Below, piece after piece: positions 2,766 through 57,292 of a stretch of 64,000 bases of DNA (its first letter is position 1; every line of letters starts with the position of its first letter). Below the pieces are notes generated by a model that was not told where the DNA came from, did not search any database, and saw only the letters and a program-made list of their open reading frames with translations. A program made the translations under genes and the position numbers. The DNA lies in NCBI RefSeq assembly GCF_900182795.1, contig NZ_FXTX01000003.1, positions 1 to 64,000 on the forward strand, given 5' to 3'. The stretch comes from Venenivibrio stagnispumantis (lineage in GTDB: Bacteria > Aquificota > Aquificia > Aquificales > Hydrogenothermaceae).

Positions 2766-3464
2766 TCACAGAAAAGAGATTATACTATCTCCCACTTTAT
2801 AACAATTTTTAAACTTGCCTTCAAGAATATTACCTACAAGTTCCATAACTACATCTTTATAAGCTAAGGGTTCTCTATTTATATTCATATCTGTTGGTAA
2901 TTTTTCTTTAAAATATTTTTTACCTTCTTTGATTTCTATTTCTTCTATATTTTCTGAAAGTATAGCTGTATCAACTTTATTTGAAATAGATAAAGGCTCT
3001 GCATTAGCTACATTAATAAAGGAAAAATTTGCCAATAAATTAGCAAGTCCTAAGGAAACGGTATAATAACATTCTTTATTTTGCACTTTCTCAATCAGTT
3101 GGTTAAATAAATCATCATTATCTATATTTATAAATAATCTATAAGCCGGTTGTTTTAAAAATTCTGTTTTAATCTGTGTCCGCGATTTTATAAGGTTAAA
3201 ACTTCCTGAATTTTTTGTATCTATCAAGTTTAGCGTCATTCTTGTTTTTTTAATTGGTTTTAAAATTTGAATAGCTACCTTAGTGTTTCTACCATTTATA
3301 TGTTTCAGATAATCATTTTTAGATAGCCCTAATATTGCTCCTAAAATTCCATAGATTGCTGTTGGTGGTGGGATAGAAAATGTAAGTGGTGAAGATGTAG
3401 TATAAAATTTTTTAAAATGTCCAAATTCTCCCCAAATGTCAAATATTAAAGTTTTTTTAGACAT
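2766..3464 (-). CDS. cas5: Cas5 subunit of type I-B Cascade
   Basis: Cas5 caps the 5' handle of the crRNA in Cascade. The 232-residue protein begins with a beta strand TLIFDIWGEFGHFKKFYTTS and continues with the Cas5 signature SPLTFSIPPPTAIYGILGAI (a P-P-P/S-T-x-x-G-x-L-G element). The length fits the Cas5h/Cas5b group. Its start overlaps the end of the nucleotidyltransferase gene by 8 bases, so translation is probably coupled. Cas3 follows directly. Confidence 0.93.
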   Translation of the reverse strand: MSKKTLIFDIWGEFGHFKKFYTTSSPLTFSIPPPTAIYGILGAILGLSKNDYLKHINGRNTKVAIQILKPIKKTRMTLNLIDTKNSGSFNLIKSRTQIKTEFLKQPAYRLFINIDNDDLFNQLIEKVQNKECYYTVSLGLANLLANFSFINVANAEPLSISNKVDTAILSENIEEIEIKEGKKYFKEKLPTDMNINREPLAYKDVVMELVGNILEGKFKNCYKVGDSIISFL

Positions 3465-15427: not shown

Positions 15428-16869
15428 GTTTGTAGCGTGCCTATAAGGAGTTGAAACATAACTTCCTTTAATAGAGTTTCTACTATTTTCTTTGCTTGTT
15501 TGTAGCGTGCCTATAAGGAGTTGAAACATCTCTTCACTGTTTTGTGCTATTTTGATTACCGATAGTTTGTAGCGTGCCTATAAGGAGTTGAAACTGATTA
15601 AATTTTCATCTTCTACTAATAGGAAATTATTAGTTTGTAGCGTGCCTATAAGGAGTTGAAACTGATAGCTCTTGCTGTAATTTCTTCTATTTTGATATTG
15701 TTTGTAGCGTGCCTATAAGGAGTTGAAACAAGAACTGAATTTGTGAATTCTCCCTATTGAAATCAGTTTGTAGCGTGCCTATAAGGAGTTGAAACTAATA
15801 ATATCGATTTCGGTTAAACATTTGTTTAAATTGTTTGTAGCGTGCCTATAAGGAGTTGAAACTTTTTGGGGGTTTTGTAATGACAGATAAACAGACAAAA
15901 GTTTGTAGCGTGCCTATAAGGAGTTGAAACCGTTGTCAAGTTTTTCTATTTCATCTTTTAACATTAAGTTTGTAGCGTGCCTATAAGGAGTTGAAACAAT
16001 CCACCATCAATAGAGATACAGCAGGGTATAATGAGTTTGTAGCGTGCCTATGAGGAGTTGAAACTCGCTAAAATATCAGGAAAGCATAATAAAGAATTAT
16101 CGTTTGTAGCGTGCCTATGAGGAGTTGAAACGAAGATATCCGGATAGAATAGGCTCTATCCTAAACAAGTTTGTAGCGTGCCTATGAGGAGTTGAAACTA
16201 CAAAAATCCCCATACATCCCAGAACAATCTATCAAGTTTGTAGCGTGCCTATGAGGAGTTGAAACAACACTTCAAGTAACCCTTGAATGATAACACCCTT
16301 TGTTTGTAGCGTGCCTATGAGGAGTTGAAACATCCGGAACAGAGGAATCATCAGAAGAAAAAATCAGAAGTTTGTAGCGTGCCTATAAGGAGTTGAAACT
16401 TTTAATCTATTTAGTATTTCTTCCAATTTATACCAGTTTGTAGCGTGCCTATAAGGAGTTGAAACTAATATCTCCATTATCTAATTGTCTTGTAATAAAT
16501 CGTTTGTAGCGTGCCTATAAGGAGTTGAAACAATTTTATTGTCAATATTTCGCTAAATTCTTAGCAGAGTTTGTAGCGTGCCTATGAGGAGTTGAAACGT
16601 CTCAATCTGTTTTTGAGATTTAGTCTCAATTGGGTTTGTAGCGTGCCTATGAGGAGTTGAAATAATAAATTGGTGTTCTTAATTTCTATAAATAATCCTA
16701 AAGTTTGTAGCGTGCCTATGAGGAGTTGAAACGCTATTCTTTCTAAATTAAACATAGAATTACCATAAAGGTTTGTAGGGTGCCTATAAGGAGTTGAAAC
16801 TTTATACAATGGTCGCATGCTATATTCCACAACTCTGGAGTTTGTAGCGTGCCTATAAAGAGTTGAAAT
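15428..16869 (+). CRISPR. CRISPR array, 22 repeats of 30 bp and 21 spacers
   Basis: The repeat starts GTTTGTAGCGTGCC and ends AGTTGAAAC (30 bp). Spacers are 35-40 bp, mostly 36-38. Repeats start at 15428, 15498, 15565, 15633, 15700, 15766, 15833, 15901, 15968, 16035, 16102, 16169, 16236, 16302, 16370, 16436, 16502, 16569, 16634, 16703, 16771 and 16840. Position 18 is A in repeats 1-9, 15-17, 21 and 22, and G in 10-14 and 18-20. Repeat 19 ends in T, repeat 21 has G at position 9, and repeat 22 has A at position 19 and a final T. Decay at the right end puts the leader on the left. GTTGAAAC would be the 8-base crRNA handle. Confidence 0.98.
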
Positions 16870-54188: not shown

Positions 54189-54512
54189 TCAAGAGAGTAA
54201 TGCTTTAAAAACTTCATTAAAAGATACTTCATCATTTTTTACAAATACGCCTTTATTTCCTGCTACACATACAGAATATTTTGGTCCGGTTAATGCCTAT
54301 CCAAGAAGTGGTGTCCATTCTTGACCTGAAAAAGCAGTATATCCATCTGTTTGCATTTTTGCCATTGCATTATTTGCAGCACACATTTGAGCTGCCATTG
54401 CAGCTTCTTCTTCTGTTATATCTCCTTCAAAAGCTACAAGATTTCCTTTTTCATCAAATTCTCCGGCAGCGAATACACCTTTTATTTTCATTAAATCTTT
54501 TAATGTAGCCAT
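54189..54512 (-). pseudogene. DUF2173-like gene with an in-frame amber codon
   Basis: From ATG 54512 (AGGAGG upstream) the frame reads MATLKDLMKIKGVFAAGEFD and SGQEWTPLLG, then TAG at 54297-54299. The same frame continues ALTGPKYSVCVAGNKGVFV to TGA 54189-54191. Aligned with the intact paralogue just upstream, the codon stands where that protein has Phe, and the downstream part matches KYAACIMGNVGVFV. So a full-length gene has acquired a nonsense codon, or the codon is read through. The truncated product would have 71 residues. Confidence 0.8.
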
Positions 54513-54528
54513 TTTTCTTACCTCCTTA

Positions 54529-54870
54529 TTAAATATATTTTGAAAGTGTTTCAAAGGTTTTGTCAAAATCTGCTTTAGAAAGTTCAACAAATACCCCTAC
54601 ATTGCCCATAATACATGCTGCATATTTACCTCCAGCTACTGCAAAACCTTGCACAGGATAAAATCCATCTTTACCGGTGTAAGCACTCCAACCTTTTGCT
54701 TGCATATTGCCCATTGCTTTGTTTGCTGCACACATAAGAGCCGCTATTTCAGCTGCTTTCTCCGACATGTCTCCATAATAAGATAGAAGTCTTCCATCTT
54801 CTGCAAACTCTCCTGCTGCAACTGCACCCGGAAGTTGCATTAATTCTTTTAGCTTTGATAATGTTGCCAT
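54529..54870 (-). CDS. DUF2173-like small protein
   Basis: A 113-residue protein: LKELMQLPGAVAAGEFAEDG, a Cys-containing helix IAALMCAANKAMGNMQAKGW, then FAVAGGKYAACIMGNVGVFV. This layout resembles DUF2173, a roadblock-like fold seen in chemolithotrophs. It is the first gene behind the sigma-54 promoter, with AAAGGAGG before the ATG, followed by a paralogue 16 bases later. Function unknown; control by the NtrC-type regulator of the same cluster is likely. Confidence 0.8.
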   Translation of the reverse strand: MATLSKLKELMQLPGAVAAGEFAEDGRLLSYYGDMSEKAAEIAALMCAANKAMGNMQAKGWSAYTGKDGFYPVQGFAVAGGKYAACIMGNVGVFVELSKADFDKTFETLSKYI

Positions 54871-54910
54871 GGCTAAAACCTCCTTTTAAAGTAGTTGTAT
54901 TAATTTATAT

Positions 54911-54924
54911 GCAAAAATTATGCC
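54911..54924 (-). promoter_or_regulatory. Sigma-54 promoter of the DUF2173 genes
   Basis: Read leftward, TTGGCATAATTTTTGCA contains GG and GC separated by exactly 10 bases, the -24/-12 signature (consensus TGGCAC-N5-TTGC). The start would be near 54899, about 30 bases before the first DUF2173 gene. An NtrC-type activator is encoded in the same cluster. Confidence 0.8.
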
Positions 54925-54982
54925 AAATATTGCAAGTTATTGAAAATTCAATATTTTTTATAAAAAGATTAAAATAAAAAAT

Positions 54983-55020
54983 GTTGCATTTTTGTTGCAT
55001 TGTTACATACAGTGTTGCAT
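54983..55020 (-). promoter_or_regulatory. Four-copy enhancer site for the sigma-54 promoter
   Basis: GTTGCAT at 54983, 54994 and 55014, and GTTACAT at 55002 (top-strand reading). They lie 84-121 bases upstream of the predicted start. The first two are 11 bases apart, and the second and fourth 20, close to whole helix turns. This is the normal place for an enhancer-binding protein. Confidence 0.65.
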
Positions 55021-55107
55021 AAGCTGAAACAAATTGAATTTTAAGAAAAAATAAAAGAAAAGCCCCCTTTATTAGGGGTTATATTTGAACAGAATATAAA
55101 AAATAAT

Positions 55108-55343
55108 GAGATAACATCAGATTTTATTATTATTGCAATAGGAAAGCATGAGGTACCCTTATAGATAGTAAAAGGTAATCAAATATAGTCAAAAGATTAT
55201 AAAAAATTATATCCTTCTACTATCTTGCAGAGTACCCGATTTTGCCTGCTACCCATTATTTGCAGTGTCTCCACTACAAACTCACGGGATACTTCCAATA
55301 ACTCCTTTAACTTTAAGTTTGTCCATTAGTGGCAAAGCCACTA
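55108..55343 (+). ncRNA. Candidate structured RNA of unknown family
   Basis: The 616 bases between the DUF2173 gene and aspS hold no credible gene, but 55134-55264 can fold into a long interrupted rod: TGCAA/TTGCA, AGCA/TGCT, GGTAC/GTACC, AGATAGTA/TACTATCT (8 pairs) and AAGG/CCTT, capped by TAATC/GATTA. A strong rightward terminator closes the segment. The rod-with-bulges shape recalls 6S RNA, but I see no diagnostic sequence, and the strand is not certain. RNase P, SRP, tmRNA and T-box signatures are absent. Confidence 0.4.
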
Positions 55344-55370
55344 TTTAATTTTTGATTTTTTTGTTTTTTT
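55327..55370 (+). terminator. Rightward intrinsic terminator before aspS
   Basis: TAGTGGC-AAA-GCCACTA (7 pairs, 55327-55343) followed by TTTAATTTTTGATTTTTTTG. No rightward gene precedes it within 3 kb, so it implies a non-coding rightward transcript. Confidence 0.85.
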
Positions 55371-55486
55371 TCTTATAAATTCCCTGCTATAATATTATAT
55401 AATCTTTCGCTATAGTTTCCAATAAGTTTTATAAAAATTAAAAACTATATAATAATATTCTAAAAACTAAAATGAAGGAGAGATAG

Positions 55487-57292
55487 ATGGTTGAACTTCT
55501 TAAAGATTTTAGAAGGGATTTATATTGTGGTGAAATAAATGAAACTAATATAGGAGATGAGCTTAGAGTTGTTGGTTGGGTTGATACTATTAGAGACCAT
55601 GGGGGTGTTTTATTTATAAATTTAAGAGATAGGGAAGGAATTGTCCAAGTTGTTTTTGACCCGGCAATTACTACATCTGATACTTATGAAAAAGCTAAGC
55701 ATCTAAAATCTGAATATGTGATAGGTGTAAAAGGTAGAGTTTTTAGAAGACCGGAAGGAACTGAAAATCCAAAAATGAAAACAGGAACTATAGAGATAAA
55801 AGCCGATTATTTGGTAATACTAAACAAATCAAAACCTCTTCCTTTCCAAATAGAAGATGATATAAAAGTTAGTGAAGAAGTAAGATTAAAATATAGATAC
55901 CTTGATTTAAGAAGAAATAAAATGCAAAGAAATATAATATTAAGACATGAAGTTTATCAGGCTACAAGAGAGTTCTTAGTAGGTAATGGATTTATAGAAG
56001 TAGAAACTCCAATGTTAACAAAAAGCACACCGGAAGGAGCAAGAGATTTCTTAGTTCCTTCAAGACTTGAAAAAGGTAAATTTTATGCATTACCTCAATC
56101 CCCTCAGTTATTTAAGCAGATTTTGATGGTTGCTGGTTTAGAAAGATATTTTCAGATAGTTAAATGTTTTAGAGATGAAGATTTAAGAGCTGATAGACAG
56201 CCGGAATTTACCCAGATAGATTTAGAGCTTTCTTTTGTTGATGAAGAAGATGTAATGGCATTATCAGAAGGTTTAATCCAACATATCTTTAAAAAAGTAT
56301 TAGGTATAGATATAAAAATACCTTTTAGAAGAATGAGTTATGAAGAAGCAATAAACAAATACGGCACCGATAAACCGGATTTAAGATATAGCTTAGAACT
56401 TATAGATATTACAGATATAGCAAAAGAAGTTGAGTTTAAAGTATTTAGTGATGTTGCAAATAGCGGTGGATTAGTTAAAGGTATTAATATAAAAGGTGGA
56501 GCTGTTTTTTCAAGAAAAGAGATAGATGAGTTAACAGAGTATGCTAAAAAATTTGGTGCAAAAGGAATGGCTTGGATAAAGCTTGAAAATGGTCAGATAA
56601 CTTCACCGATTTTAAAATTCTTTACGGAAGAACAGAAAAATAAACTACTACAAAGAATGCAGGCTGAAAATGGAGATTTACTTATATTTATTGCAGATAA
56701 AAAAGATATAACCCATAAAACTCTTGGATTTTTAAGAAAACATATAGCAGAAAAAATGAATTTAATACCGGAAAATAGATGGGAATTTTTATGGGTTGTG
56801 GATTTTCCTTTATTTGAATGGGATGAAGAAGAAAAAAGATTGGTGGCTATACACCATCCATTTACAAGCCCAAAAGAAGAAGATATAGAAAGGTTAGATG
56901 AAGCATTATCTGATGTAAATCTTGCTTTATCTTTTAAATCAAGAGCTTATGATATGGTTTTAAATGGAGAAGAAATTGGGGGTGGTTCAATTCGTATCCA
57001 TATACCGGAAGTTCAGGAAAAAATATTTCAGCTTTTAAATATTTCGCCGGAAGAAGCAAAAGAAAAATTTGGATTTTTAATAGATGCTTTAAGCTATGGA
57101 GCACCACCACACGGCGGACTTGCTTTTGGTTTAGACAGAATACTTGCTCTAATGACAGGTTCAGAAAGCATAAGAGATGTTATAGCATTTCCAAAAACTC
57201 AAAAAGGTATATGTCCTCTTACCGGAGCACCTGATTATGTTCAGGAAAAACAGCTCAAAGAGCTTGGAATTAAAGTAGAGGAAGAAGAGTAA
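55487..57292 (+). CDS. aspS: Aspartyl-tRNA synthetase
   Basis: A class II aminoacyl-tRNA synthetase of 601 residues, the long bacterial type with a GAD insertion domain. OB-fold anticodon domain: VVGWVDTIRDHGGVLFINLR. Motif 1 and 2 region: FIEVETPMLTKSTPEGARDF and FRDEDLRADRQPEFTQIDLE. Motif 3: GGLAFGLDRILALMTG. It may charge tRNA-Asn as well in organisms without AsnRS; that cannot be told here. A good GAAGGAGAG precedes the ATG. Confidence 0.97.
   Translation: MVELLKDFRRDLYCGEINETNIGDELRVVGWVDTIRDHGGVLFINLRDREGIVQVVFDPAITTSDTYEKAKHLKSEYVIGVKGRVFRRPEGTENPKMKTGTIEIKADYLVILNKSKPLPFQIEDDIKVSEEVRLKYRYLDLRRNKMQRNIILRHEVYQATREFLVGNGFIEVETPMLTKSTPEGARDFLVPSRLEKGKFYALPQSPQLFKQILMVAGLERYFQIVKCFRDEDLRADRQPEFTQIDLELSFVDEEDVMALSEGLIQHIFKKVLGIDIKIPFRRMSYEEAINKYGTDKPDLRYSLELIDITDIAKEVEFKVFSDVANSGGLVKGINIKGGAVFSRKEIDELTEYAKKFGAKGMAWIKLENGQITSPILKFFTEEQKNKLLQRMQAENGDLLIFIADKKDITHKTLGFLRKHIAEKMNLIPENRWEFLWVVDFPLFEWDEEEKRLVAIHHPFTSPKEEDIERLDEALSDVNLALSFKSRAYDMVLNGEEIGGGSIRIHIPEVQEKIFQLLNISPEEAKEKFGFLIDALSYGAPPHGGLAFGLDRILALMTGSESIRDVIAFPKTQKGICPLTGAPDYVQEKQLKELGIKVEEEE

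Follow-up and report, generated by a model that had tools for sequence, protein, structure and literature searches.

TnpB, from which Cas12 descends, is believed to hold its transposon in place. In ISDra2 its guide RNA, the omegaRNA, reportedly overlaps the 3′ end of tnpB; stand-alone omegaRNAs have reportedly been mentioned for IscB, and phage TldRs are said to use such guides for repression. Among published systems, two bear most closely on the locus considered here. The first is the TnpB omegaRNA (or reRNA) itself, described in the cited part of one paper as a scaffold that ends at the right end of the element, with the guide lying outside it (PMC10278001). The second comprises the PATEs (palindrome-associated transposable elements) of Haloquadratum and Halanaerobium, short non-coding sequences whose ends are common with IS605-type elements (PMC7290912, PMC3119063). 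One PATE-like sequence of Halanaerobium, about 271 nt long, has a complete right end, together with the final 58 nt of tnpB and a portion of the left end (PMC7290912). In the cited sections of these papers, PATEs are treated as transposition ends and not as guide-RNA genes (PMC7290912, PMC3119063). We found no description of short elements carrying only an omegaRNA in the open-access literature searched; a report in subscription journals is possible.

We analysed a window of 64,000 nucleotides from Venenivibrio stagnispumantis, in which the sequence before aspS resembles both systems. Like PATEs, as far as the cited sections describe them, it is a short non-coding derivative with ends common with IS605-type elements; unlike them, it belongs to a group that in three genera has kept a whole omegaRNA-like scaffold, together with a promoter and a 5′ hairpin that covaries. 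Like a TnpB omegaRNA, its predicted scaffold runs to the right end with the guide outside, and the modelled fold of the TnpB in the same genome matches ISDra2 TnpB. It differs in having no nuclease gene in cis and a scaffold that matches no Rfam family.

Anatomy of the element and its same-genome copies

The preliminary description had placed a rod-shaped RNA of raised G+C in a 616-base gap before aspS. Both the gap (54871-55486, between the DUF2173 gene and aspS) and the composition (G+C 0.47 at 55230-55295 against 0.29 for the whole window) are borne out. The structured segment proposed at 55108-55343 is also real, but its strand and extent were misassigned, the true unit being 55151-55445 on the minus strand (Table 1). 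Among the candidates then offered (a diverged 6S RNA, a new regulatory RNA or a mobile-element RNA), the last was right. Although 6S RNA and the window segment both form a long bulged rod, we reject a 6S assignment: a scan of 54870-55490 at E ≤ 10 against Rfam lists no 6S, and the locus is homologous to tnpB elements. The matches in that scan, mir-133 and MIR169_2 among them, were all implausible; the whole-window Rfam scan placed no family at gathering score near the locus, and six related loci matched no family except tRNAs. A comparison of 55151-55445 with plasmid and phage collections gave no match. Elsewhere in the window, a minus-strand CRISPR array with 19 repeats matching RF01315 occupies 15428-16732, and two adjoining small minus-strand genes whose products look similar lie at 54297-54870, one of them the DUF2173 gene.

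Table 1. Features of the locus upstream of aspS, in window positions
Feature	Position	Strand	Basis or remark
Non-autonomous IS1341/IS605-type element, 295 bp	55151..55445	minus	end homology to same-genome copies
Left-end promoter TTGGAA-17-TATAAT	55394..55422	minus	10/12 consensus matches; sigma-70-like
5′ hairpin TAGTGGC-TTT-GCCACTA	55327..55343	minus	covariation across relatives
Relic of last 40 tnpB codons (NLKLKELLEVSREFVVETLQIMGSRQNRVLCKIVEGYNFL, stop)	55197..55319	minus	translation
Internal stem-loop of putative omegaRNA	55252..55288	minus	helix with 98.6% of cells paired, 4/9 pairs changed on both sides
Right-end rod, 9 + 13 pairs with internal loop	55151..55237	minus	putative 3′ end of omegaRNA scaffold; covariation
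Predicted guide (flank start beyond right end)	55131..55150	minus	analogy with TnpB omegaRNAs
Terminator-like hairpin with T-rich tail, could end minus transcript	55063..55078	minus	sequence pattern
TATA, candidate target site/TAM	55446..55449	minus	abuts left end; overlaps first bases of aspS -10 box
aspS -10 box TATAAT	55448..55453	plus	adjoins element left end; similar in relatives, judged by eye
DUF2173 gene	54529-54870	minus	left flank of gap
aspS	ATG at 55487	plus	right flank of gap

A genome search with 55000-55480 returned eight matches, one of which is the query itself. Three are 91% identical over about 170 bp (window 55148-55151 to 55319), one is 76% identical over 55218-55441, and three are further short matches, two covering the left end only. 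The three 91% matches are the right ends of elements of about 1.78 kb that are mutually 88-90% identical. Each has one ORF, of 556 aa, which in the copy L056 extends to 569 aa if an upstream start is used; a fourth copy, on contig C20, is broken into two ORFs. Pfam places OrfB_IS605 and Cas12f1-like_TNB in all three full-length proteins, which score 105.7, 97.9 and 94.1 against the NCBIfam guided_TnpB cut-off of 100 (one of three passing). The best PDB matches of an AlphaFold model (mean pLDDT 65) are Cas12f and ISDra2 TnpB (8exa, 8h1j; E 1e-8 to 3e-7). In sequence searches against PDB chains, a single TnpB sequence found nothing and a profile gave only a chance tapemeasure match. A TnpB-fold protein is available in the window genome from these three full-length copies, and the genome holds 14 matches to the TnpB domain PF07282. 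Outside the family, relatives of the TnpB at 43-46% occur in other Aquificota, in Desulfofervidaceae and in an Acidobacteria MAG.

Read on the minus strand, the window copy opens with the left end and the promoter. An A-rich stretch and the hairpin follow, and after them come the 40 final tnpB codons and the right-end rod. Nearly all of tnpB is gone, and no transposase gene is present; the relic is 87% identical over 39 aa to full-length TnpB. Its left and right ends are common to the three full-length copies, the broken tnpB element and a second short copy on contig C6. The genome has no short copies besides this one and the window copy. The two have a common left end and agree in the hairpin and the joint that follows it, but the C6 copy is without part of the rod tip. 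Each boundary of the window element is uncertain by one or a few bases, the right one by one base because the T after GTACC is nearly constant there. The corresponding promoter region lies directly before tnpB in the full-length copies, and promoter-like sequence is also found in aligned copies, reading TTGACA-17-TATAAT in L116. That 55151-55445 is a short, internally deleted TnpB element of IS1341 type (IS200/IS605 superfamily) on the minus strand is well supported, and strongly so. Judged by sequence, the part that it retains matches the omegaRNA layout: the predicted RNA would be in tnpB sense, overlap the 3′ end of the gene and end at the right end.

We also note that the C6 copy (L059, about 3193-3440 of its contig) begins a short way before the probable ATG of another gene, and that its rod-tip deletion leaves a perfect stem.

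Structure, covariation and strand of the predicted RNA

The preliminary description had assumed a rightward transcript and terminator; on that reading the locus would hold a plus-strand small RNA or an aspS leader ending at 55343. On the plus strand, 55108-55343 does fold better than chance: its energy is -52.2 kcal/mol, shuffled sequences average -38.4 and none of 200 does as well (z -3.40); and a 7-pair stem with T-rich sequence at 55327-55343 does give a terminator-like pattern. However, the minus strand of the same segment folds more strongly (-73.1, z -5.32), as does the minus strand of the core at 55151-55343 (-67.0, z -6.27, against -44.9, z -3.93, for plus). On the minus strand, G-U cells outnumber A-C cells by 31 to 4 in one alignment and 34 to 6 in the other, which assigns the RNA to the minus strand, in tnpB sense; the plus strand has A-C mismatches where the minus strand has G-U. 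The supposed terminator corresponds to the 5′ hairpin that the predicted minus-strand RNA would form; in the full-length copies it falls within tnpB coding sequence. A rightward terminator is not supported. No such segment was seen by eye upstream of aspS in 29 relatives (only 40 nt of L069 were available), nor does it match an Rfam family. Strand asymmetry, tnpB homology and the conserved left-end promoter all point to leftward transcription; the minus-strand assignment is strong, and a rightward small RNA or leader is very unlikely.

Pairing is conserved among right-end relatives from the window genome's family, with compensatory changes in other genera. The covariation test over 31 pairs used 8 of 15 extracted sequences and the rod-only test 11 of 15; both alignments leave out L059 and L041 (rod-tip deletions) and L037 and L038 (insertions), and the smaller one additionally L036, L039 and L040. 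Across 8 sequences and 31 pairs, 92.3% of cells are paired (42-51% when slid), 8 pairs are changed on both sides, and the covariation score is 0.263 against 0.145 for shuffled alignments (0/500). The rod alone, in 11 sequences, has 91.6% of cells paired, 8 of 22 pairs changed on both sides and a score of 0.296 against 0.183 (0/500). Two results count against the reading: further pair types exceed the shuffles in neither alignment, and the inner rod helix is only 84.5-87% paired.

For the 5′ hairpin, in nine sequences (seven distinct), 41 of 42 cells are paired, two pairs are changed on both sides, and the score is 0.413 against 0.087 shuffled (0/500); in an earlier set of seven sequences, to which the larger set adds two from the genome G009, 54 of 500 shuffles reached the score. 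Both sets are without L056, L058 and L060 (identical to L057) and L120 (identical to L114). The arms read AGTGGC/GCCACT in the window genome, AGAGGC/GCCTCT in G015, G022 and G043, and ATCGGC/GCCGAT in the standalone copies of G009, one of which has a mismatch. In full-length copies the hairpin falls in tnpB codons K-V-A-M-P-L or K-E-A-K/E-P-L, and the change in pairing couples the V/E codon with a silent site of the proline codon, which argues for selection on the RNA. Conserved secondary structure is found in three covarying helices.

In comparisons with each of the three full-length copies, the window copy departs at 8-10 of 142 positions, yet all 37 tested pairs are kept, one of them through an A-T to G-C exchange; the probability under random substitution is a modest 0.003-0.03, and the comparison does not tell on which side the changes arose. 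Structural conservation of the window copy could be partly inherited from recently coding copies.

Standalone loci and mobility in the family

We searched 41 genomes of the family with a covariance model (R1) built from eight sequences, the window's among them; its match to the window, at 149.4 bits, is therefore to one of its own model sequences. R1 gives 17 matches in six of the 41 genomes, and these reduce to 16 loci, L120 and L123 overlapping one element. Eight loci adjoin tnpB (L107 to L113 and L117) and eight lie apart from it: the window (L119), the C6 copy (L121), L116 in G015, L115 in G022, and L114, L118, L120 and L122 in G009. L118 is not judgeable, its contig starting 157 nt upstream, and L115 is without the 5′ part. 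The remaining six standalone loci each have the left end, promoter-like sequence, the hairpin and the scaffold, and they span three genera, with G022 and G009 in one, G015 in another and the window genome in the third. The elements L114, L120 and L122, which are 336-371 bp long, are nearly the same in sequence but differ in their right flanks. Six standalone elements of the same plan, three of them near-identical in one genome, suggest spread without tnpB. In these three G009 loci additional hairpins are inserted into the internal stem-loop, and two of the loci have such insertions in the rod as well.

TnpB of the same type is found at E ≤ 1e-40 in six of the 41 genomes (the window genome G000, G022, G015, G043, G053 and G054). 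G009 has only a 166-aa TnpB end piece, at a contig end, and G053 has TnpB and no R1 match. In the C-terminal part of the full-length TnpB of G015 (L094, contig C9), NANAVGSYNILRK stands where four other aligned copies have NADAVGSYNILRK, a stretch whose Asp we take to be the third RuvC residue; given the changed Asp, this protein may, from its sequence, be catalytically impaired.

The Y1 transposase (PF01797) was found in 14 of the 41 genomes by a PF01797 search, which gave none in the window genome and, among the six R1-bearing genomes, only a fragment in G022. Since no Y1 was found in the window genome, the family must owe its movement to a transposase that has been lost or came from elsewhere, or else must now be stranded, and the window element may be immobile at present; the three near-identical G009 copies imply past movement. 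The absence of Y1 also fits a rival account, in which the element is an ordinary PATE- or MITE-like deletion derivative whose omegaRNA is an unused leftover and whose ends were kept as transposition ends. In the cited sections, IS605-type deletion derivatives that keep the tnpB end are known (PMC7290912, PMC3119063), and right-end palindromes are needed as DNA for transposition, which could alone preserve the rod. Against this, standalone copies of three genera have kept the promoter, the internal stem-loop and the end-distant 5′ hairpin; the 5′ hairpin covaries, and tolerance of G-U on one strand points to a constraint on RNA and not on DNA. We regard an inert relic as a real possibility that falls short of probable.

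Insertion site, predicted guide and candidate role

Of 13 copies examined, 12 have TATA directly beside the left end; in the other, L095, the left end was not located. It may be the target or a part of the element; by analogy with IS200/IS605 we take it to be the target and the TAM. Relatives have a TATAAT-like -10 box about 30-45 nt before aspS, and in the window the left end stops just before the corresponding box. No R1 match in another genome lies at aspS. By analogy with TnpB omegaRNAs, the flank below 55151 would serve as the predicted guide. Nowhere else in the genome do the first 16 nt of this guide match perfectly.

Such an arrangement, with a guide RNA next to a promoter, recalls TldR systems, and TnpB or a dead TnpB-like protein carrying the window guide could conceivably repress or tune aspS. 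In favour, the element adjoins the aspS -10 box, the sequence immediately upstream corresponds to the guide, and phage TldR reportedly offers a precedent. Several observations speak against this. The occupied site has no TATA-plus-guide target because the element separates the two; no dead TnpB adjoins the locus, and the three full-length TnpBs keep D/E/D-like positions, which we take to be catalytic-type residues. The 16-nt guide start has three other places within two mismatches, and no relative carries the element before aspS. Repression is a candidate role only, and domestication as a regulator is very unlikely.

Our preferred explanation is that the window element is a deletion derivative whose guide RNA is loaded in trans and retains it, to which, taken whole, we assign a probability of roughly 0.7. 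The left-end promoter (55422-55394) would transcribe leftward an omegaRNA of about 240 nt of scaffold plus a flank-derived guide, and TnpB from the full-length copies would load this RNA in trans. The complex would recognise the empty aspS promoter site next to the TATA motif and cut it, and cutting of the empty site would favour retention of the element, which would thereby parasitise its own transposon family with nothing but a guide RNA. That the guide RNA works, and does so in trans, is plausible, and the kept promoter, hairpin and pairing point to it. Transcription, trans loading by TnpB and any selected function of the window element are predictions of this explanation.

More tentatively, and with doubt prevailing, the TnpB families of the Hydrogenothermaceae may have yielded self-promoted, stand-alone omegaRNA genes, discarding the nuclease but keeping the scaffold, the place of the guide, the 5′ hairpin and the promoter. 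They would persist because TnpB made by full-length relatives takes up their guides in trans. If true, a selfish element consisting of RNA alone would be exploiting an RNA-guided nuclease. Nuclease-less elements with a guide RNA and a promoter would show that guides can be shared in trans among members of a family, and they would resemble a natural step from a transposon guide to free-standing guide-RNA genes. The window is a well-delimited case in which to test this, since its genome contains both partners.
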